Shown here: positions 54,923-62,948 of the stretch, one piece after another
How positions within the stretch are numbered: the stretch's first letter is position 1
Layout: each line of letters starts with the position of its first letter
DNA from: Stigmatella aurantiaca DW4/3-1
Lineage (GTDB): Bacteria; Myxococcota; Myxococcia; Myxococcales; Myxococcaceae
Assembly: GCF_000165485.1 (NCBI RefSeq)
Contig: NC_014623.1
Span: 6,280,893-6,344,892, forward strand
Reading direction: 5' to 3'
DNA length: 64,000 nucleotides
The notes under the pieces: generated by a model
What the model saw: the letters and a program-made list of their open reading frames with translations, nothing else
The model's database searches: none
Told to the model about the DNA's origin: nothing
Position numbers and translations under genes: made by a program

Positions 54923-55999
54923 ATGATCTCCCTTCGTCTGCTGGTCCTTGGACTCGCCGCGGCTTCGCCCGCGGCCCCCCCCTCCACGGCCGAGCAGCTT
55001 CACGCGGTGTGTCAAACCCATGCCCTGGAGCCCAGCAACCCCTGGGCCCTCGCCCACGGCATCACCCTGGAGGGCCGTGACGTGCGCGCTCGCGACGGGC
55101 GCCGCGCCGTGGACGTCATCGTCTCGGACTTCCTGCGCCGGGACGAAGCCCCGGGAGGCCGAGGGCTGTACTTCGAGTCCTTCACCGCCCAAGGCCACCC
55201 CGTGCAACCCCACCCCGCCCTCCTGGAGAAGACGCTGGTGCTGGCCGGGGTCCCGCTGGGCCGGACGTTCCGGACGGAGGCGGGCCCGGTGACGCTGAAG
55301 CGGTTGATGGAGGCGCTCCAGCGGAACTTCCACCCCACCCTTGCCTCCTCCCCGGAGGGCGCATGGGCACTGGATGCGCTGGGCCATGTCCTCACGCCCG
55401 GGGCCACGTTCCGGAACGGCACGGGCGAGACGGTGCGCTTCGACGCGGTGATGGACGAGGCGCTCGTCACCCTGGAGCGGGAGCAGTCGGAGCTGGCCGA
55501 GGGAATGAAGGCAGGGCTGCCCCAGGTGCCCAAGCGCAAGCAGGGCATCTACGCGCACCCGTGTGGAGGGCTGCACTTCTTCCAAGCGGTGGCGAGTTGG
55601 GCGCGCCACCCCGCCGTGCGCCAGGCGTGGGGAGGACGGCTGGAGGTCCAGGTGGATGTACTCCTCTACCGGCTGGGCTCGGAGGCCCGTCAGTACGAGG
55701 CCGCGCTGGCCGCGGCGCCCCAGCACCGGTTGGCGCTCCTCTCCCAATCGCTCAAGTTCTACGGCCACTTTCTGGAGACGCTCGGGCGCTACCGGAAGGA
55801 GAACGGCTGGCGCCCCTCCCCCTCTCAGCAACAGACCGTGGTGCGAGCCCGCCAGTTGCTGGAGGCCACGGTCCGCAGGCTCGGCGAGGCCCAGGCCTTT
55901 CAGCGGATGCCCGTGCTGGCGAAGGAAGAGCCTCAGCTCTTCTGGGATCTGCTCGGAGACTCCTGCCATGCGGCGCATGGCCTCGACCTCTGGAAGTAA
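54923..55999 (+). CDS. Exported hypothetical protein
   Basis: 358 residues. A signal-like N-terminus (MISLRLLVLGLAAASPAAPPSTA) suggests export. The rest is mixed alpha/beta with no motif I recognise; HAVCQTHAL, QGIYAHPCGGLHFFQAV and GDSCHAAHG give a few Cys and His that could bind metal. Codon bias supports coding. It is divergent from the acyl-CoA dehydrogenase and convergent with the fatty acyl-AMP ligase gene (9 bases between stops). Confidence 0.75.
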   Translation: MISLRLLVLGLAAASPAAPPSTAEQLHAVCQTHALEPSNPWALAHGITLEGRDVRARDGRRAVDVIVSDFLRRDEAPGGRGLYFESFTAQGHPVQPHPALLEKTLVLAGVPLGRTFRTEAGPVTLKRLMEALQRNFHPTLASSPEGAWALDALGHVLTPGATFRNGTGETVRFDAVMDEALVTLEREQSELAEGMKAGLPQVPKRKQGIYAHPCGGLHFFQAVASWARHPAVRQAWGGRLEVQVDVLLYRLGSEARQYEAALAAAPQHRLALLSQSLKFYGHFLETLGRYRKENGWRPSPSQQQTVVRARQLLEATVRRLGEAQAFQRMPVLAKEEPQLFWDLLGDSCHAAHGLDLWK

Positions 56000-56008
56000 T
56001 CCGAAGGC

Positions 56009-57760
56009 TCAGGAGGGCGGACGGGGCCACACCCCCGCGACGAGGCGATCCTTCCCCTGGCGCAGCCACGCGACCCAGGACTGGAGCCACCGCTCCCCAC
56101 GCTGCCGCGCCCCGAGCACCGAGCCCAGGACGAGCCTCCGAGCCCGATGCTTCAGCAGGTCCACGCGCAGATCCCGGGAGGTGGCCACGCGGATGTGTCC
56201 CTGCTCGTAGGCCTCGGTGATGGCCCTGCGCTGGAGCTTGCCGCTGCTCGTCTTGGGAAGCTGCCCATAGCGGATGAACAGCACGTCCTCCAACGCCACG
56301 GTGACGCCCATCGCCTCCAGAATCGCGGCGGCCACCTGACGCTGGCCCACGGACCTGTCCTCCAGCACCTCCGGGCCGTTCACTTCGGCGAGCACCACCA
56401 CGCGCCCCTGGGCCTGGATGACCGCCGATCTGCCGGACCGGATGAACGCGAGGCGCTCGACGGCTTGCTCGAAGTCACTGGAGAAGTAGCTCTGGCCGTT
56501 GATCTTGATCCGGTCATTGAGGCGGCCCGTGATGAACAGCTCCCCATCCTGCATGAAGCCCAGATCGCCCGTGGGGTAGAAACCCTCCTCGCCGCGCAGG
56601 GGGCGCTCGTCCGCGTAGTACGCCTGTGCCAGGCTCCCGCTTCGCAGTTCGATCTGGCCCAGCTCGCGCTCCCCGCTGACGCGGCCTTCTTCGGTCCGCA
56701 ACCTCACCTCGAACTCGCTCAGGGGATACCCCACGGAGATGGCCGGTTGTCCGTGAGGGCCCGTGACGACCCGCCACCCCTCCTCCCCCACGCACGAGAC
56801 CATCAGCACCACCTCGGCCATGCCGTAGCAGGGCTTGATCGCCTCTCGCCGCAAGCCCTGGGGGGCAAGCAGCACCGTGAAGCGCTCCAGGTTGGCGATG
56901 TTGATGGGCTCGCTGCCCAAATAGACGGTCCGCAGCGCCGACAGATCCAGCTCTCGCAGTTCCTCCGCCCCGAGTCCGTTCAAGATCTTCAGCGTGTAAT
57001 CGATCGCGAAGTTCGGAATGACGGCCAGGGTGCCGCGGTGCTCCGACAGGAACTCCAGCCAGCCCATCGGATCCATGAGGAAACTCATGGGCTGGGTGAG
57101 GAGGCTGTCGCAGTGCCCGTACATGCACGCCAGCATCCCGCCCACCAACCCCATGTCGTGGTACAGCGGCAGCCAGCTCACGCACCGATCCTGGGCGCAC
57201 AGCGCTCCCTGGTTCTGGATCATCCGCAGGTTGGCGTGGAGGTTGCGCCAGGTGATGGGCACCCCCTTCGGAAAGGCCGTCGAGCCCGAGGAAAACTGCA
57301 CGAACGCCAGCGCGTCCTCCTCGGGCACCCGCGGGCGCGCTCCCGCGAGGCGGGCCCCCGCGGGCGGAAGCGGCACACGCACGAGGGCCAACTCCAGCGA
57401 GCGCACGCTTGGCACATCCAGGATGCGGTTCACCCCATGGCGTGAGGACAGACGCGACAGGAAATCCCGGTAGGCGCCCTTGGGCGTGCTGAGAATGTAG
57501 GGCTTCACCGAAAATGGCACCGCCCCCAGCGCCATCAGTCCGAAGAAGGAGAGGATGACGGCCTCGGACGTCTCGAACGGAAACAGGATCCGGTCCCCGG
57601 GCTGGATCCCCTGGGCGCGGAAGTGCTCCGCGCAGGCGGCGATCCGCTCGGGCATCGCCCGGTAGGCGAGGAACGAGCCGCGGTGGCCAAAATCCTCGAA
57701 GAGGTGCAGGCCCCGCTGGGGATCCGCCGCGGCGAGCCGCTCGAAGAGGGTATCGGACAT
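56009..57760 (-). CDS. Fatty acyl-AMP ligase (FAAL-like)
   Basis: 583 residues. ANL-superfamily adenylate-forming enzyme: A3 motif FVQFSSGSTAFPKGV, A4/A5 region VSWLPLYHDMGLVGG, the substrate segment MSFLMDPMGWLEFLSEHRGT, IKPCYGMAEVVLMVS, the hinge GELFITGRLNDRIKING, and catalytic Lys in LPKTSSGKLQRRA. YHDMGLVGG and PCYGMAEVVL are typical of FAALs, which make acyl-adenylates and pass them to an ACP rather than CoA. The C-terminal extension of about 45 residues is basic. It is the last gene of the operon with the thioesterase (15-base gap), diiron protein and ACP. The exact fatty acid is unknown; a CoA ligase is the alternative. Confidence 0.88.
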   Translation of the reverse strand: MSDTLFERLAAADPQRGLHLFEDFGHRGSFLAYRAMPERIAACAEHFRAQGIQPGDRILFPFETSEAVILSFFGLMALGAVPFSVKPYILSTPKGAYRDFLSRLSSRHGVNRILDVPSVRSLELALVRVPLPPAGARLAGARPRVPEEDALAFVQFSSGSTAFPKGVPITWRNLHANLRMIQNQGALCAQDRCVSWLPLYHDMGLVGGMLACMYGHCDSLLTQPMSFLMDPMGWLEFLSEHRGTLAVIPNFAIDYTLKILNGLGAEELRELDLSALRTVYLGSEPINIANLERFTVLLAPQGLRREAIKPCYGMAEVVLMVSCVGEEGWRVVTGPHGQPAISVGYPLSEFEVRLRTEEGRVSGERELGQIELRSGSLAQAYYADERPLRGEEGFYPTGDLGFMQDGELFITGRLNDRIKINGQSYFSSDFEQAVERLAFIRSGRSAVIQAQGRVVVLAEVNGPEVLEDRSVGQRQVAAAILEAMGVTVALEDVLFIRYGQLPKTSSGKLQRRAITEAYEQGHIRVATSRDLRVDLLKHRARRLVLGSVLGARQRGERWLQSWVAWLRQGKDRLVAGVWPRPPS

Positions 57761-57775
57761 GGGGCCTCGTGCTGC

Positions 57776-58204
57776 TCAGGGGGGACTGACACGTGACGCC
57801 TCCAGGAACTCCTGGAGCGAGCACAGGGAGCGGCTCTGCGCGTGGACGAAGGCCGCTTGCACGCGGGCCTCCACCGCCAGCCGTGTGCCGGCGTCGATGA
57901 GGATCTGCTGGTGGAAGCGGACCCGGTAGTGAAGCTCCTCCGGGTCGCGCAGCTCTTCTTCGTGGGGGAACTCCAAGCGGGTGTGGACCACCACCTCCTG
58001 CGGGGAGATCTCCTTGCGGTAGTCCACCTCGATCCGCAGGGTCAGCGCCACCACCTGCGCCACCTTGCGCAGCGCGTTGCGCTCCATCCATGCCCAGCGG
58101 CCCGCCTCCAGGTACTCCAGGGCGGTGGCGTTGTTCACATGGCCGAGGCTGTCCAGATCATTGGGCCGGACACGCAACGTCAGCACGGACTCTTCGAAGC
58201 GCAC
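57776..58204 (-). CDS. Hotdog-fold acyl thioesterase (4HBT-like)
   Basis: 142 residues with the hotdog pattern: RVRPNDLDSLGHVNNATALEYLEAGR carries the Asp catalytic motif (DSLGHVNN) of the 4-hydroxybenzoyl-CoA thioesterase/FatA-like group, then a central helix and the sheet ending FHQQILIDAGTRLAVEARVQAAFV. It probably releases the acyl product from ACP or CoA. It starts 3 bases after the diiron gene and ends 15 bases before the FAAL gene. Confidence 0.88.
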   Translation of the reverse strand: MRFEESVLTLRVRPNDLDSLGHVNNATALEYLEAGRWAWMERNALRKVAQVVALTLRIEVDYRKEISPQEVVVHTRLEFPHEEELRDPEELHYRVRFHQQILIDAGTRLAVEARVQAAFVHAQSRSLCSLQEFLEASRVSPP

Positions 58205-58207
58205 GGC

Positions 58208-59206
58208 TCAACACCCGACCAGGTCCATCCAGTAGTCCTCCACCTCCTCGGCGGAGGCGCACGCCACCCCGGTGATGCGCCGGAGCGAGTGCAGGATGAG
58301 CGACCGCTTGCGATCCAGCGCCTCGGGCGCCGCGGCCGTCCGGCCCGCTTCGTTCTCGAGGTGATCCCACCAGTTGATGTGGGTCCCCCGGTCCTCCACG
58401 TGCTCGCGCGCGCTGCCGTAAAGCTCGCCCTCTTCGCGCAGGAAGAAGTGCGCCACGGCGAAGGCTTCCTTGGCGGGGTAGGCCCCGCTGTCCACCAGCG
58501 CCTTGGCGAACGAGATGAAGTACTGCATGTGCTGCACTTCATCGGCCCCCACGTGCTTGAACAACGCCTTCAGGCCGGGGTCGGTTACCTGCCGCATGTA
58601 CTGGCCATAGTTGACCGAGGCGATGCTCTCGGAGAACGCCAGCATCGTCACCGTGCGCAGCAGGTCATCGTCCGGGAACACCTTGCGGTACTCGATGACC
58701 GCGTCATCGCTGAGTGGCTCGAAGCCCGCGCGCATGGCCAACTGCGTGAAGCTGGTCTCGTGGTGCGCCTCCTCCTCGTTCCAGTAGCGGCTCCAGGTGC
58801 CGAGCGCCTGGATGATGGAGGCCACCACGTTGTCCTGACCTACCCAGCGCCGACACTCCTTGTCGGCCAGCCGCGCCATGCGGTCCGCGCTCGGCTTGGC
58901 GGTCATCTCCGCCTTCCCGGCGCTCCAGACCACGAACCGGTCCCTCTCGGTGAGCTGCTCCAGGCGGACGGAGTCCACCAGCGCGGTGGCGCTCCAGCGG
59001 CGCGCCTCGTGCAGCCGGTGTTGATCCCAGGTGATGTCCACCAGGCGCCGGCCCTCCTCCTTGAAGGCCCGGTAGAGATCCACCACCACCGTGGGCCGCC
59101 GGGGCGGCTCCAGCTCCGCGGGGCTCTCCACCAGCCCCGACATGCGCACCAGCGCGTCTTCCAGCAATGCGGGTTTCACGAGCCCGTGCTCACGGACGGC
59201 GGCCAT
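58208..59206 (-). CDS. Soluble diiron acyl-ACP desaturase-like protein
   Basis: 332 residues from ATG 59206, overlapping the ACP stop by one base (TGATG). A four-helix diiron site is visible: Glu100, Glu145-x2-His148 in WNEEEAHHETS, Glu193 in FSESIASVNYG, Glu223-x2-His226 in GADEVQHMQYF. This matches the ligand set of plant and bacterial acyl-ACP desaturases (Glu, ExxH, Glu, ExxH) and the helix spacing is near that of the stearoyl-ACP delta-9 enzyme. Relatives such as AurF and other ferritin-like oxygenases act on carrier-bound or aromatic substrates, so hydroxylation is also possible. It is placed between the ACP and thioesterase genes. Confidence 0.85.
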   Translation of the reverse strand: MAAVREHGLVKPALLEDALVRMSGLVESPAELEPPRRPTVVVDLYRAFKEEGRRLVDITWDQHRLHEARRWSATALVDSVRLEQLTERDRFVVWSAGKAEMTAKPSADRMARLADKECRRWVGQDNVVASIIQALGTWSRYWNEEEAHHETSFTQLAMRAGFEPLSDDAVIEYRKVFPDDDLLRTVTMLAFSESIASVNYGQYMRQVTDPGLKALFKHVGADEVQHMQYFISFAKALVDSGAYPAKEAFAVAHFFLREEGELYGSAREHVEDRGTHINWWDHLENEAGRTAAAPEALDRKRSLILHSLRRITGVACASAEEVEDYWMDLVGC

Positions 59207-59496
59207 CAAACCGGCCTCCCTTGCTGGCACTCCCGGACAAAGAGATCCACAACCTGGGAGATAGGGGTATCCAGAGAAAGCGCCGGAAGCCGGACGCGAA
59301 TCGCATACTGTTTGCGCAAGGCATTGGAGGACTTGGCGAACGCTTCCATCAAGTCCACGCTGTTGGTCATCCGGTCCGAGCGCGCGATGACCTCCGCCAA
59401 CGTGAGGTCCGCGCCGAACAGCTCCTCGGCGTTCAACCCCACGTTCTCGCAGAACTTCTGACAGATGAAGTCCTTCAATTCGCCGACGTCAGCCAT
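59206..59496 (-). CDS. Acyl carrier protein of the FAAL operon
   Basis: 96 residues with ribosome site GGGAGGTC nine bases upstream. It is an ACP with phosphopantetheine site Ser46 in RMTNSVDLMEAF (normally DSLD; Asn instead of Asp). The tail is longer than in AcpP and ends IAIRVRLPALSLDTPISQVVDLFVREC-like. It is not near fabF or fabD, so it is a dedicated carrier for the FAAL/desaturase/thioesterase genes that follow. Translation of the next gene is coupled through TGATG. Confidence 0.88.
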   Translation of the reverse strand: MADVGELKDFICQKFCENVGLNAEELFGADLTLAEVIARSDRMTNSVDLMEAFAKSSNALRKQYAIRVRLPALSLDTPISQVVDLFVRECQQGRPV

Positions 59497-59563: not shown

Positions 59564-59611
59564 GAAAACCTCCGCCAAGGGCTACCTGGTCCGTAGGCTC
59601 AGGAGGTTTTC
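59564..59611 (-). terminator. Intrinsic-type terminator after the CaiB-family gene
   Basis: GAAAACCTCC (59564-59573) pairs perfectly with GGAGGTTTTC (59602-59611), a 10-bp stem with a 28-base loop that itself has a CTAC/GTAG pair. It starts nine bases after the CaiB-family stop and, read on the minus strand, ends in GGAGGTTTTC with its U-tract. It separates that gene from the ACP operon. Confidence 0.7.
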
Positions 59612-59619
59612 TCAATTCC

Positions 59620-60831
59620 TTATGAAACATCTTCGGAATCATTGGAGACAACTGGAATAGTGATTTTTAGACGCAGCAGCTCGTCCGCGCTGAAACCGGC
59701 CTCGGTGAGGATCTCCCGGGAGTGCTGGCCGAGCTCCGGCGGGGGCCGCAACGGCGTGGGGCCCATCCGCAAGGGGGTCAACAGGTGGGTCACCCTGCGC
59801 CCACGCTGCGCGTCATTGGCCTCCACGAAGAGTCCGCGGGCCTGGAGCTGCGGGTCCTTCCATACCTCATCCCCCTCGAGGACCGGCTCGATGCACAGGT
59901 CCGTGCCCGCGAAGCGCTCCTGCCAGTAGGCCAGGGGGTGCTCGGCGAAGAGCCGCGCCAGTTCCGCCTTCACGCGCGCGCCCGCCTCCGCCGTGTCGTA
60001 GCCGTCCGCGAAGAGGTCCATGCGCCCCAGCCGCTCGCACAGGCCCGAGAAGAACTTGGGCTCCAGCGCGCCCACGGCCAGCCACCGGTCATCCTGGGTG
60101 CGGTAGAGGCCGTAGCACGCGTAGCCGCCGTTGAGCGCCTCGCGCCCGCGCTGGAGCGGCGCGCCTTGCTCGCCCTGGATGAGCCGGGCCGCCAGGTGCA
60201 TGTGCAGGAAGGCCAGCGTCCCATCCGTCATGGAGACATCGACGAGGCGCCCGCGCCCGGTGCGCTCGCGCTCATGGAGCGCCGCGAGAATGCCCACCAG
60301 CGCGAAGAGGCTCCCGCCGCCGATGTCCCCCATCTGCACGCCCGGAAAGGCCGGCGCCCCGCCCGCGGCCCCGCCGTACGCGAGCACCCCGGCGCGCGCC
60401 GCGTAGTTGAGATCATGCCCCGCCTTGAGCCGGTCCGGCCCCGTCTGGCCGTACCCGGAGATGGCGCAATAGATGAGGCGCGGGTTCTCCGCCCGGAGCA
60501 CACCCTCGCCCAGGCCCAGCTTGTCCATGACGCCGGGGCGGAAGCTCTCCACCAGCACGTCGTAGCCGCGCACCAGCCGCTTGAGCGCCTCGCGCCCCTC
60601 GGGGGACTTCAGATCGAGCGTCAACGAGCGCTTGTTGCGGTTGAGCCCGTAGAACAGCGCGCTCTCGCCCTCGCGAAAGGGGGGCATCTGCCGGATGTAG
60701 TCTCCCCCCTGGGGCTCCTCCACCTTGTCCACGGTGGCGCCCAGGTCCGCGAGGACGAGCGTGGCGTAGGGGCCCGGCAACAGCCGCGAGAGATCCAACA
60801 CCTTGAGGCCAGAAAGGGGGAGCGTGTCCAT
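59620..60831 (-). CDS. CaiB/BaiF-family CoA transferase (racemase-like)
   Basis: 403 residues. Family III CoA transferase/alpha-methylacyl-CoA racemase fold: LSRLLPGPYATLVLADLGATV, DLKSPEGREALKRLV, VESFRPGVMDKLGLG, GYGQTGPDRLKAGHDLNYAARAG and DVSMTDGTLAFLHMHLAARL. The Asp of GHDLNY is the site expected for racemases or for the aspartyl-CoA intermediate of transferases. It may act on 2-methyl branched acyl-CoA, which myxobacteria make in quantity. It is separated from the ACP operon by a terminator and preceded by the SCP2 gene 111 bases upstream. Confidence 0.9.
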   Translation of the reverse strand: MDTLPLSGLKVLDLSRLLPGPYATLVLADLGATVDKVEEPQGGDYIRQMPPFREGESALFYGLNRNKRSLTLDLKSPEGREALKRLVRGYDVLVESFRPGVMDKLGLGEGVLRAENPRLIYCAISGYGQTGPDRLKAGHDLNYAARAGVLAYGGAAGGAPAFPGVQMGDIGGGSLFALVGILAALHERERTGRGRLVDVSMTDGTLAFLHMHLAARLIQGEQGAPLQRGREALNGGYACYGLYRTQDDRWLAVGALEPKFFSGLCERLGRMDLFADGYDTAEAGARVKAELARLFAEHPLAYWQERFAGTDLCIEPVLEGDEVWKDPQLQARGLFVEANDAQRGRRVTHLLTPLRMGPTPLRPPPELGQHSREILTEAGFSADELLRLKITIPVVSNDSEDVS

Positions 60832-60942
60832 GTGGATCCGGGAGGAGAGAAGACGGCAACGGCGCGGCTCCCAGGAGGGAGGACGCGCCGTTTCAGCCGG
60901 GCGCGCCCCCTTCAGGAGCGCACCGGAGCGCCACGAAGGGCG

Positions 60943-61269
60943 TTACGCCAGCAGCTTGGCCAGCTTCATCGCCAGCCCCATGTCCATGGGCTTGAACTTG
61001 AGCTTGCCCTGCATGGCGGCCATCTGCGCGTTGAGCTTCTTCTCGATGATCTTCACGAAGTCGTCGCTGCTCACGGTGATGGTCATCTTCGACTCACCAT
61101 CGATCCCCTTGGCAACCCAGTCCGAGTCCTTCGTGAGGTCCACCGTCCAGGTGCCGCCCCCCTCCCCCGTGATGTTGAAGTGGATGATCGCGTTGATGTC
61201 CTTGCCCAACTCCGGCTTTGCCTTCAGCCGGTTGGGGAGGTCCGTCTCGAGGAATTGCGCCGCCGTCAT
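60943..61269 (-). CDS. SCP2 sterol-binding domain protein
   Basis: 108 residues from ATG 61269 with CAGGAGA nine bases upstream; the longer frame to 61308 has no site. A full SCP2 lipid-carrier domain: LPNRLKAKPELGKDINAIIHF, GGGTWTVDLTKDSDWV, MTITVSSDDFVKIIEKKLNAQMAAMQGKLK, ending FKPMDMGLAMKLAKLLA. SCP2 proteins carry acyl chains or isoprenoids; here it is near acyl-CoA enzymes on the same strand. The phosphoserine-rich C-terminus seen in eukaryotes is absent. Confidence 0.92.
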   Translation of the reverse strand: MTAAQFLETDLPNRLKAKPELGKDINAIIHFNITGEGGGTWTVDLTKDSDWVAKGIDGESKMTITVSSDDFVKIIEKKLNAQMAAMQGKLKFKPMDMGLAMKLAKLLA

Positions 61270-61340
61270 CGGTCCGTCTCCTGTCAAATTGACTGGTGAG
61301 TCAATCACAGGTGGACCGTAATGTTCTGCCCCCTACCGGG

Positions 61341-61769
61341 TCAAGCACGAGGAAGGTGGGAGGAGATCGCCTTGGAGGCCGGATCGAGCGCGCGGCGGAC
61401 CATGTCGAGCAGATCATTGAGCTCGAAGGGCTTGGCCAGGTGTCCGACGGCGCCGATGTCCACGGCCTTGGAGCCCACGTTGCGGTCCGCGCTCAGCACG
61501 ATGAGCGGGATGCTGGAGATGGCGGGCGGACGCTGGCGCATGCGCTGGGCGAACTCCCACCCATCCATCACCGGCATCATCAGGTCCAGCAGGATGAGCT
61601 GAGGCGGGTCGGGCTCCAGGCGATCCAACGCCTCCTTGCCATTGCGAGCCCGGCGGATCTCGAACCCCTCGGCCTCGAGAATCTCCGAGAGGGCCTCCAG
61701 GATGTCCGGATCGTCATCCACCACCAGGATGACGGTGGAACCACTGCTGTGTGAGATTGAAGAAGCCAG
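61341..61769 (-). CDS. Single-domain response regulator with unusual start
   Basis: A CheY-type receiver of about 127-143 residues: acidic pocket VVDDDPDI, phosphoacceptor in LILLDLMMPVMDG, Thr/Ser in VLSADRNV and Lys in HLAKPFE. The usual start is a problem: the first GTG (61724) falls inside the first beta strand (ILVVDDD). The only good ribosome site, GGGAG (61780-61776), is six bases before an in-frame CTG at 61769 (and three before ATT). The coordinates here use CTG. The histidine kinase is divergent, so the pair may work together. No output domain is present. Confidence 0.8.
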   Translation of the reverse strand: MASSISHSSGSTVILVVDDDPDILEALSEILEAEGFEIRRARNGKEALDRLEPDPPQLILLDLMMPVMDGWEFAQRMRQRPPAISSIPLIVLSADRNVGSKAVDIGAVGHLAKPFELNDLLDMVRRALDPASKAISSHLPRA

Positions 61770-61855
61770 AATCTTCTCCCGGGGGGACGCCCTTTCAGAT
61801 TTTCTACCAATCCAGTCCAGAGGGGCTCAATAAAATCGAGTCTGTCCCCACGGCC

Positions 61856-61871
61856 GGGCAGGCACGTTGCA
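61856..61871 (+). promoter_or_regulatory. Sigma-54-like promoter for the histidine kinase gene
   Basis: GGGCAGGCACGTTGCA: a GG at 61857-61858 and GC at 61869-61870 separated by ten bases, the -24/-12 spacing of sigma-54 promoters (consensus TGGCACG-N4-TTGCW). The -12 box TTGCA is good, the -24 box is weak. It lies about 60 bases before the start of the kinase gene. Confidence 0.35.
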
Positions 61872-61931
61872 AAACCGACAGTCGCTGCCCACCCTTTCCC
61901 GAGATTCGTTGAACCGCGCTCGGGAGGCGAG

Positions 61932-62948
61932 ATGGGTCAGAGGGACCAAGGAGTGGAAGATAGGGCGCGGCAACCCCCTGGGCTCGTGCTGATTCCACGC
62001 CAAGGCGCCCCTCGGCTGCTGGGCCGGCTGCTGCTGGAGCACCTGGAGCTGGAGGCCCTTCCGCCCTTCATCGAATCGGCGAGCGATTTGATGGCGGCGG
62101 CCGGTTTCCAGCCCCGTCCGGGCGTGGCGAACTGCTGGGAGCGGGAGGGGCGAGAGCTCGGGGTGGCCGAAGAGGTGCTGGAGGACGGGACGCGGTGGAT
62201 CGCCACCTGGCTCGTCGGGGAGAAGGCTCCAGAGGTGACGCACGAGCGGGTGCGCTACCTGTCCTTGGCCTCGCACGATTTGCGAGGCGCATTGGCCAAC
62301 ATCCGCTCCTACGCGGCCCTGCTCCTCAACGGCCGCATTGCCCTGGAGCCCAAAGTCCACCGGGGCATGGAGACCATCCTGCGCAACGCGGATCGGGCCC
62401 TGGCCTTCTCCCAGGACTTCTTCGACGCCAGCCGGGCGGATCTGAACGCGTTGGCCTTCGAGCAAGAGCCGCAAGCGCTCGAACCCTTGCTTGCCACCGC
62501 GGTCGAGCGGCACCAGCCGGCGGCCCGGGTGGCCGGGGTGACGCTGGAGTTGGAGGCGCCCCTGGCCTTGCCCCTGGTGAACATCGACGGGGGGCGCATC
62601 CAGCACGCCGTGGAGGCCTTCGTGCTGAATCAGCTGGGCCGGGCCCAGGCCGGGGAGCGGATCCTCGTGCGGGCCGTGCCCGGACACTCGGGGATCCGCA
62701 TCGAGGTGCAGCGCGAGGGCAAGCCCCTGTCCGAGGAAGAGGCGGAGCAGGTGTTCCAGCGGGAGGAGCGCGCCTTCCGGGAGAAAAAGCTGGAGGACGC
62801 ACTGCGCGTCCACCTGGCCCTCCAGGAGGTCGAGGTCCACGGCGGCCGTGTGGGGGTGGAGACCGGCCCGGGCAGCACCACGCTGTTCCTCTCGCTCCCG
62901 GGCACGCTTTCCCGGGAACTCGCCGGCACAGCGGCCTTGCATTCTTGA
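61932..62948 (+). CDS. Histidine kinase with degenerate ATPase domain
   Basis: 338 residues, soluble. A short N-terminal sensor of about 100 residues precedes the HisKA helix pair with His115 in YLSLASHDLRGALANIRS. The ATPase part is poorly conserved: the N-box is only LNQLGRAQAG (no clear Asn-x-x-x-Asn), and G-boxes are hard to find, though VGVETGPGSTTLFLSLP resembles the G2/end strand. It may act mainly as a phosphatase or phosphotransfer partner for the divergent response regulator. Ribosome site GAGGCGAG lies just before the ATG. Confidence 0.8.
   Translation: MGQRDQGVEDRARQPPGLVLIPRQGAPRLLGRLLLEHLELEALPPFIESASDLMAAAGFQPRPGVANCWEREGRELGVAEEVLEDGTRWIATWLVGEKAPEVTHERVRYLSLASHDLRGALANIRSYAALLLNGRIALEPKVHRGMETILRNADRALAFSQDFFDASRADLNALAFEQEPQALEPLLATAVERHQPAARVAGVTLELEAPLALPLVNIDGGRIQHAVEAFVLNQLGRAQAGERILVRAVPGHSGIRIEVQREGKPLSEEEAEQVFQREERAFREKKLEDALRVHLALQEVEVHGGRVGVETGPGSTTLFLSLPGTLSRELAGTAALHS

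Follow-up and report, generated by a model that had tools for sequence, protein, structure and literature searches.

A Four-Gene Operon of Stigmatella aurantiaca Putatively Reduced from a Mobile Cassette for Acyl-ACP Oxidation

Introduction

Within a 64,000-nucleotide stretch of the Stigmatella aurantiaca DW4/3-1 genome (hereafter the window; coordinates are positions within it) lies a tight minus-strand operon of four genes, predicted to encode an acyl carrier protein (ACP), a soluble diiron protein, a hotdog thioesterase, and a fatty acyl-AMP ligase (FAAL). Does this compact set constitute a complete fatty acid-modifying pathway, as an earlier note on this DNA supposed, or is it what is left of something larger? 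On balance, we favor the latter: the operon is probably the pared-down version of a mobile cassette for acyl-ACP oxidation, which would load a fatty acid onto the carrier, oxidize it there, and release it by hydrolysis.

The Cassette and Its Reduction

The genes recur in a fixed order, namely ACP, diiron protein, (phosphopantetheinyl transferase), thioesterase, (alpha/beta hydrolase), and ligase, in Myxococcota, Actinomycetota, Cyanobacteriota, and Pseudomonadota. In its fullest form the cassette has six genes. An AcpS-family phosphopantetheinyl transferase of 120–155 amino acids is encoded between the diiron and thioesterase genes in most relatives, and an alpha/beta hydrolase (Pfam Hydrolase_4) between the thioesterase and ligase genes in many; cassette transferases of relatives score 31.8, 32.6, and 38.0 bits against Pfam ACPS (cut-off 25). 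All six genes are found in Hyalangium, Citreicoccus, Corallococcus, several Streptomyces, Catellatospora, and Xenorhabdus (where the transferase match is partial), and the Nostoc cassettes have five, without the hydrolase. Across the 11 actinobacterial cassettes, the hydrolase gene is present in seven, a crotonase gene (72–85% identity) in four (L044, L050, L052, and L112), and both in none.

Four genomes of the window genus have only the ACP, diiron, thioesterase, and ligase genes at this locus, and a fifth (L005) retains the transferase. The earlier idea that four genes are the whole system is thus not borne out, since relatives add the AcpS-type transferase and the alpha/beta hydrolase. Because relatives, near ones included, carry extra genes that the window genome has lost, compactness is here a derived state. 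We also considered the compact form as the ancestral one and set this aside, since the transferase, often accompanied by the hydrolase, is part of the cassette in near relatives and in each of the four phyla. Comparison of gene content therefore argues that the window's four-gene operon is a reduced descendant of the six-gene cassette.

Gene set, order, and co-inheritance are direct observations. The diiron and ligase genes occupy an identical set of 24 of the 96 genomes of the family (Myxococcaceae), an outcome with a chance of 1/C(96,24) = 4e-23 if relatedness is ignored. Identical distributions and conserved order rule out a chance adjacency of four lipid genes, and co-occurrence of the genes in other genomes, the check that had been set beforehand, was indeed found.

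The cassette is widespread in some groups and rare in others. Diiron orthologues of 55–94% identity occur in a few myxobacterial genera, Frankia, Streptomyces, Saccharothrix, and Catellatospora, and orthologues of about 54% identity on two conjugative Nostoc plasmids and one Xenorhabdus plasmid. Within the family, the cassette is present in all seven genomes of the window genus and in 15 of the 17 genomes of genus g6 (which includes Corallococcus), and is absent from genus g19. The core set was found in 2 of 392 Streptomycetales genomes, with a sister set in four more, and in 1 of 396 genomes of a wide Actinomycetota sample, this one being the centre genome itself. In a tree of the diiron proteins, the actinobacterial members are monophyletic (support 100/100) and nested in the myxobacterial ones with moderate support (91/97), a topology that fits transfer from myxobacteria to actinomycetes. 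On the Nostoc plasmids the cassette is an isolated operon, with no polyketide synthase (PKS) or nonribosomal peptide synthetase genes adjoining. The earlier proposal of activation, modification, and release on a carrier-bound acyl chain is accordingly strengthened as regards a self-standing unit that travels, and fails as regards completeness with four genes.

This distribution also bears on the purpose of the cassette. Its near-universality in genus g6 and in the window genus could mean that it edits recycled fatty acids for membrane or storage lipids, with no secreted or specialized product, a role compatible with any chemistry and one for which the alpha/beta hydrolase could supply fatty acids from lipids. 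We consider such lipid remodeling rather unlikely: elsewhere the cassette is patchy and plasmid-borne, it is missing from a genus of the same family, and in Saccharothrix it adjoins genes for a major facilitator superfamily (MFS) exporter, ThiS, a ThiF-rhodanese protein, and acyl-CoA dehydrogenases.

The Carrier Protein and Its Diiron Partner

The small protein at the head of the operon was identified by predicted structure, sequence libraries having failed: the window protein has no significant Pfam match, and none of the 34 members of its family matches Pfam PF00550 (PP-binding) at E ≤ 0.1. Its AlphaFold2 (AF2) model (pLDDT 86), computed without sequences from plasmid records, has a carrier fold in which Ser46 stands at the start of helix II, opening a helix of residues 46–64. 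In VIA-align, its best matches (Z 6.5–9.1) are nearly all carrier proteins, the top one at Z 9.1 and 2.4 Å across 80 residues. Within the motif N-S-V-D-L-M-E, residues N45, Ser46, D48, L49, M50, and E51 are invariant in the family. An AcpS-type gene beside the carrier gene in most relatives provides independent support for its identity, as it implies a carrier that must be armed. The earlier assignment of an ACP with Ser46 as its phosphopantetheine serine is thereby reinforced, and the model points to a cryptic acyl carrier protein with Ser46 as the predicted attachment site.

Hyalangium and a near relative have the carrier–diiron gene pair twice, in tandem; one copy, the first, is of the window type (71–78% identical to the window genus), and the other of the Corallococcus type. 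In the core family, identity of the diiron protein correlates best with that of the ACP (Spearman 0.82, against 0.66 for the ligase and 0.55 for the thioesterase), and the identities of ligase, transferase, hydrolase, and thioesterase mostly correlate with one another at 0.88–0.94 (transferase–hydrolase, 0.72), all values being computed without regard to tree structure. This co-duplication and co-variation make it probable that the diiron enzyme works with this carrier as its dedicated partner and that the carrier holds the enzyme's substrate.

A long branch (0.43) leads to the window-type diiron clade and may reflect changed specificity. The same branch, together with the loss of the transferase, the hydrolase, and the second carrier–diiron pair relative to Hyalangium, could instead point to a window copy in decay that has ceased to yield the ancestral product. 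We regard decay as very improbable, since four genomes of the window genus have every one of the four reading frames intact, the catalytic residues are conserved, and the gene spacing is tight.

The diiron protein itself has no significant Pfam match in the window. Its Streptomyces orthologue scores 24.7 bits against PF03405 (FA_desaturase_2), above the cut-off, and a profile of the diiron family finds the mycobacterial acyl-ACP desaturase DesA2 (1za0) at E = 1.8e-5. The AF2 model (pLDDT 86) is ferritin-like, with VIA-align Z scores of 16–17 to 6d9f, VlmB, R2lox, and the ivy and castor acyl-ACP desaturases, which are tied; the castor and ivy desaturases themselves lie at Z 15–16.5. Foldseek returned only E-values above 0.001 for this model. 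Model and alignment together give a ferritin-like bundle with the metal ligands E, ExxH, E, ExxH. These residues (E100, E146, H149, E193, E223, and H226) are invariant in 35 core, 4 sister, and 3 remote sequences, one metagenomic core sequence being gapped at a ligand site. The earlier note had named E100, E193, and the pair E223/H226 correctly, and had placed the remaining pair one residue off, at E145/H148; residue 148 is Phe in the Nostoc and Xenorhabdus orthologues, and H149 is invariant. Overall, the protein appears, on sequence and model, to be a soluble, remote relative of the acyl-ACP desaturases. In a metagenomic Deltaproteobacteria copy (L114:1577-2434, G202), the diiron gene is split into two frames around the last ligand helix, by a frameshift or an assembly error, with a transferase-thioesterase-like open reading frame downstream.

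The plant and mycobacterial soluble acyl-ACP desaturases (PF03405; castor 1AFR, DesA2 1ZA0) share with this enzyme the ferritin-like fold, the E/ExxH/E/ExxH site, and acyl-ACP as the presumed substrate. However, the window enzyme resembles them only remotely, and its gene sits with genes for its own carrier, ligase, and thioesterase.

The Thioesterase and the Ligase

The thioesterase matches Pfam 4HBT_2 (E = 6e-15) and Acyl-ACP_TE_C (E = 3e-6), its PDB matches are hotdog thioesterases, as had been claimed, and its active-site motif RPNDLDSLGHVNN is kept throughout the family.

The ligase matches AMP-binding (E = 4e-44) and AMP-dom_DIP2-like in Pfam; its best PDB matches are FAALs, and its NCBIfam matches are mostly FAAL models. 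The core motif WLPLxHDMGL and the catalytic K508 are invariant among 15 relatives, so that the description of a FAAL-like ligase stands. Stand-alone fatty acyl-AMP ligases (PMC11837247) are alike in overall sequence, the WLPxYHDMGL region, the catalytic lysine, and an ACP partner next door. The window ligase has a basic C-terminal tail of about 60 residues, observed only among the myxobacterial ligases; in the stretches aligned, those of actinobacteria and cyanobacteria stop near residue 525.

Unlike the stand-alone ligases, however, the cassette ligase has a FAAL-specific insertion (FSI), following CYGMAE, that is about 20 residues shorter than in 3PBK, and this holds for all 15 family members aligned; a full insertion was found in none of them. 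The FAAL-specific helix is reported to reject coenzyme A (CoA) more strongly than the FSI does (PMC8460268), and therefore the ligase likely loads ACP rather than CoA, as far as its sequence can be read.

Proposed Mechanism and Alternatives

The substrate, the type and position of the reaction, the direction of flow, and the role of the product are matters that we infer. In the proposed scheme, another phosphopantetheinyl transferase of the cell would arm Ser46 of the carrier, because the cassette's own has been lost. The ligase would then adenylate a free fatty acid with ATP and load it onto the carrier, where the diiron enzyme, using O2 and electrons that a ferredoxin or comparable donor of the cell supplies, would oxidize the bound acyl chain, most likely introducing a double bond. 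Finally, the hotdog thioesterase would hydrolyze the modified acyl-ACP and free the acid.

Several observations weigh against this scheme. The window diiron protein scores only 12.2 bits against PF03405, below the cut-off of 22.7, and the active-site threonine of soluble acyl-ACP desaturases was found in no sequence: three residues past E193, Ala196 is invariant in the core, sister, and remote sets. We take Ala196 to correspond to Thr199 of the castor desaturase, with the role presumed for that residue, and standard desaturase chemistry is therefore not to be assumed. The shortened insertion means that the ligase might still load CoA. In addition, no redox partner gene lies within the operon. 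As for the genes missing from the window form, relocation within the genome was considered and dropped, because only distant homologues turned up: the genome has no close copy of the cassette transferase, only an AcpS of 32% identity at genome position 5779482, and its hydrolases match at about 35% over part of their length.

The same architecture would serve an enzyme that hydroxylates the chain, for example at C-2 or C-3, with release of a hydroxy fatty acid, and the invariant alanine would suit such chemistry. A further argument comes from the sister cassette. In four Streptomyces (L121–L124), this cassette (about 35% identity, in the order ACP, diiron protein, transferase, thioesterase, ligase) lies in a conserved block with genes for a ScbR-like TetR, a LipP1-type esterase, a pyridoxal phosphate (PLP) aminotransferase-like protein, a TIGR03086 protein, a flavin mononucleotide (FMN)-dependent alpha-hydroxy-acid dehydrogenase (PF01070, E = 1.5e-130), and an additional adenylating enzyme; the block amounts to an uncharacterized biosynthetic cluster, perhaps for lipidic amino acids. 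Its dehydrogenase fits hydroxylation better than desaturation, as dehydrogenase and aminotransferase would together turn a 2-hydroxy acid into a 2-keto acid and then an amino acid. However, a set this distant may differ in chemistry, and these two genes adjoin neither the window cassette nor other core cassettes. The crotonase gene that neighbors four of the actinobacterial core cassettes is better matched by an enoyl intermediate or product. For the core family we therefore favor desaturation over hydroxylation, holding it roughly twice as probable, and think hydroxylation rather unlikely as an account of this operon.

The diiron protein might also carry out other chemistry on acyl-ACP or on a nitrogenous group, such as CylC halogenation, VlmB N–N oxygenation, ADO deformylation, or the self-crosslinking ligand oxidation of R2lox. 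VlmB, 6d9f (with ADO activity), R2lox, and the desaturases are structural neighbors at equal Z, and the combination of FAAL, ACP, and dimetal halogenase is the known CylABC design (PMC8406957). This, too, seems improbable, since the closest sequence relationship is to acyl-ACP desaturases, the metal site is complete, and no halide, amine, or aldehyde-forming partner gene lies within the operon. Desaturation on the carrier thus remains the reading that we prefer.

Gene Layout and Related Loci

The four minus-strand reading frames and their spacing are as the earlier note had given them: a 1-base overlap between the ACP and diiron genes, a 3-base gap between the diiron and thioesterase genes, and a 15-base gap between the thioesterase and ligase genes (Table 1). 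Of the terminator placed before the ACP leader, the inverted repeat is real, with perfect 10-bp stems and a 28-nt loop (−20.5 kcal/mol, z = −2.0), and the terminator is not upheld, as no T tract follows the stem and the terminator scan made no call there.

Table 1. Features of the operon and its surroundings in the window.
Feature	Position	Strand	Remark
Predicted ACP gene	59206..59496	-	96-aa open reading frame
Diiron protein gene	58208..59206	-	332 aa counted from ATG
Hotdog (4HBT_2) thioesterase gene	57776..58204	-	142 aa, GTG start; putative release enzyme
FAAL-clade fatty acyl-AMP ligase gene	56009..57760	-	583 aa
Inverted repeat, terminator-like	59564..59611	.	between the upstream CoA-transferase gene and the ACP gene
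Diiron/thioesterase junction	58205..58207	-	site of the AcpS-type phosphopantetheinyl transferase gene in relatives; none in the window
Thioesterase/ligase junction	57761..57775	-	site of the alpha/beta hydrolase gene in relatives; none in the window

The flanks (54923-55999 on the plus strand, and 59620-62948) hold genes for a 358-aa hypothetical protein, a CoA-transferase III, an SCP2 protein, a response regulator, and a kinase-like protein. They are syntenic in Corallococcus and Citreicoccus, and the cassette therefore occupies a conserved chromosomal site there.

Three further loci came to light. Beside the core cassette of Saccharothrix sp. ST-888 (L112:632-16029) lie genes for a second FAAL-like ligase, the ThiS sulfur carrier, a ThiF-rhodanese protein, two acyl-CoA dehydrogenase-like proteins, and an MFS exporter, partly shared by L045–L047 and L050; these neighbors suggest a sulfur-containing lipid product. 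In another myxobacterial genus, an operon (L126:6207-10130, G120) encoding a 440-aa FA_desaturase_2-like diiron protein, a 4HBT thioesterase, a PP-binding ACP, and a FAAL is an independent assembly of the same design. Finally, adjoining genes for a FAAL, a cyclopropane-synthase-like methyltransferase (CMAS), and an ACP (L120:6784-10491, G074) are a possible module for on-carrier acyl methylation or cyclopropanation.

Relation to Known Systems and Perspectives

The earlier note compared the operon with JamABC, and the likeness of design holds: in jamABC alkyne and polyyne cassettes, too, the ACP stands alone and is loaded with a fatty acid by a FAAL, desaturation takes place on the carrier, and the whole is small and horizontally mobile. 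Closer parallels are the polyyne cassettes, in which a thioesterase also takes part (PMC8406139), and CylABC, whose dimetal enzyme is soluble (PMC8406957). The polyyne cassettes, which have seven genes and yield cepacin, caryoynencin, collimonin, and protegencin, use several membrane desaturases (IPR005804) and rubredoxin (PMC8406139), whereas the window operon contains neither a membrane desaturase nor a rubredoxin, its sole oxidase being the soluble ferritin-like diiron enzyme. Furthermore, relatives of the window cassette differ from them in adding the AcpS-type transferase and the alpha/beta hydrolase and in having a carrier that escapes Pfam PP-binding.

The cyanobacterial CylA–CylB–CylC modules likewise combine a FAAL and an ACP with a soluble dimetal enzyme whose target is a fatty acyl chain on the carrier, but feed PKS lines, whereas the window cassette has its own thioesterase and its relative in Nostoc stands alone; this comparison is one of published gene arrangement (PMC8406957). 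By analogy, the cassette design resembles that of the known alkyne/polyyne and CylABC kinds, with a different gene content. No description of the cassette was found in the open-licence literature, an absence that is weak evidence in view of that scope. A link to stigmolone, the Stigmatella pheromone, was likewise considered; no open-licence paper on it was found, and the wide taxonomic spread of the cassette argues against a product made by Stigmatella only.

Tentatively, and with more doubt than attaches to the operon itself, the family may be seen as a transferable, carrier-specific system of fatty acid oxidation with its own carrier family, arming enzyme, and release enzyme, making a free oxidized fatty acid for signaling or antibiosis. 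It would have spread from myxobacteria to actinomycetes and separately onto Nostoc and Xenorhabdus plasmids, and the duplicated carrier–oxidase pair of the window genus would have gained a new specificity.

Terminal alkynes, polyynes, and chlorinated acyl chains stem from small cassettes of FAAL, ACP, and oxidase. In the present one, a soluble diiron enzyme replaces the membrane desaturase, the carrier is missed by Pfam, and the size suits reconstitution in Escherichia coli. As a laboratory tool, a soluble oxidase of acyl-ACP would be convenient, and the cassette is a candidate for the source of a new class of oxidized fatty acids in fruiting myxobacteria, Frankia, Streptomyces, and cyanobacterial plasmids.

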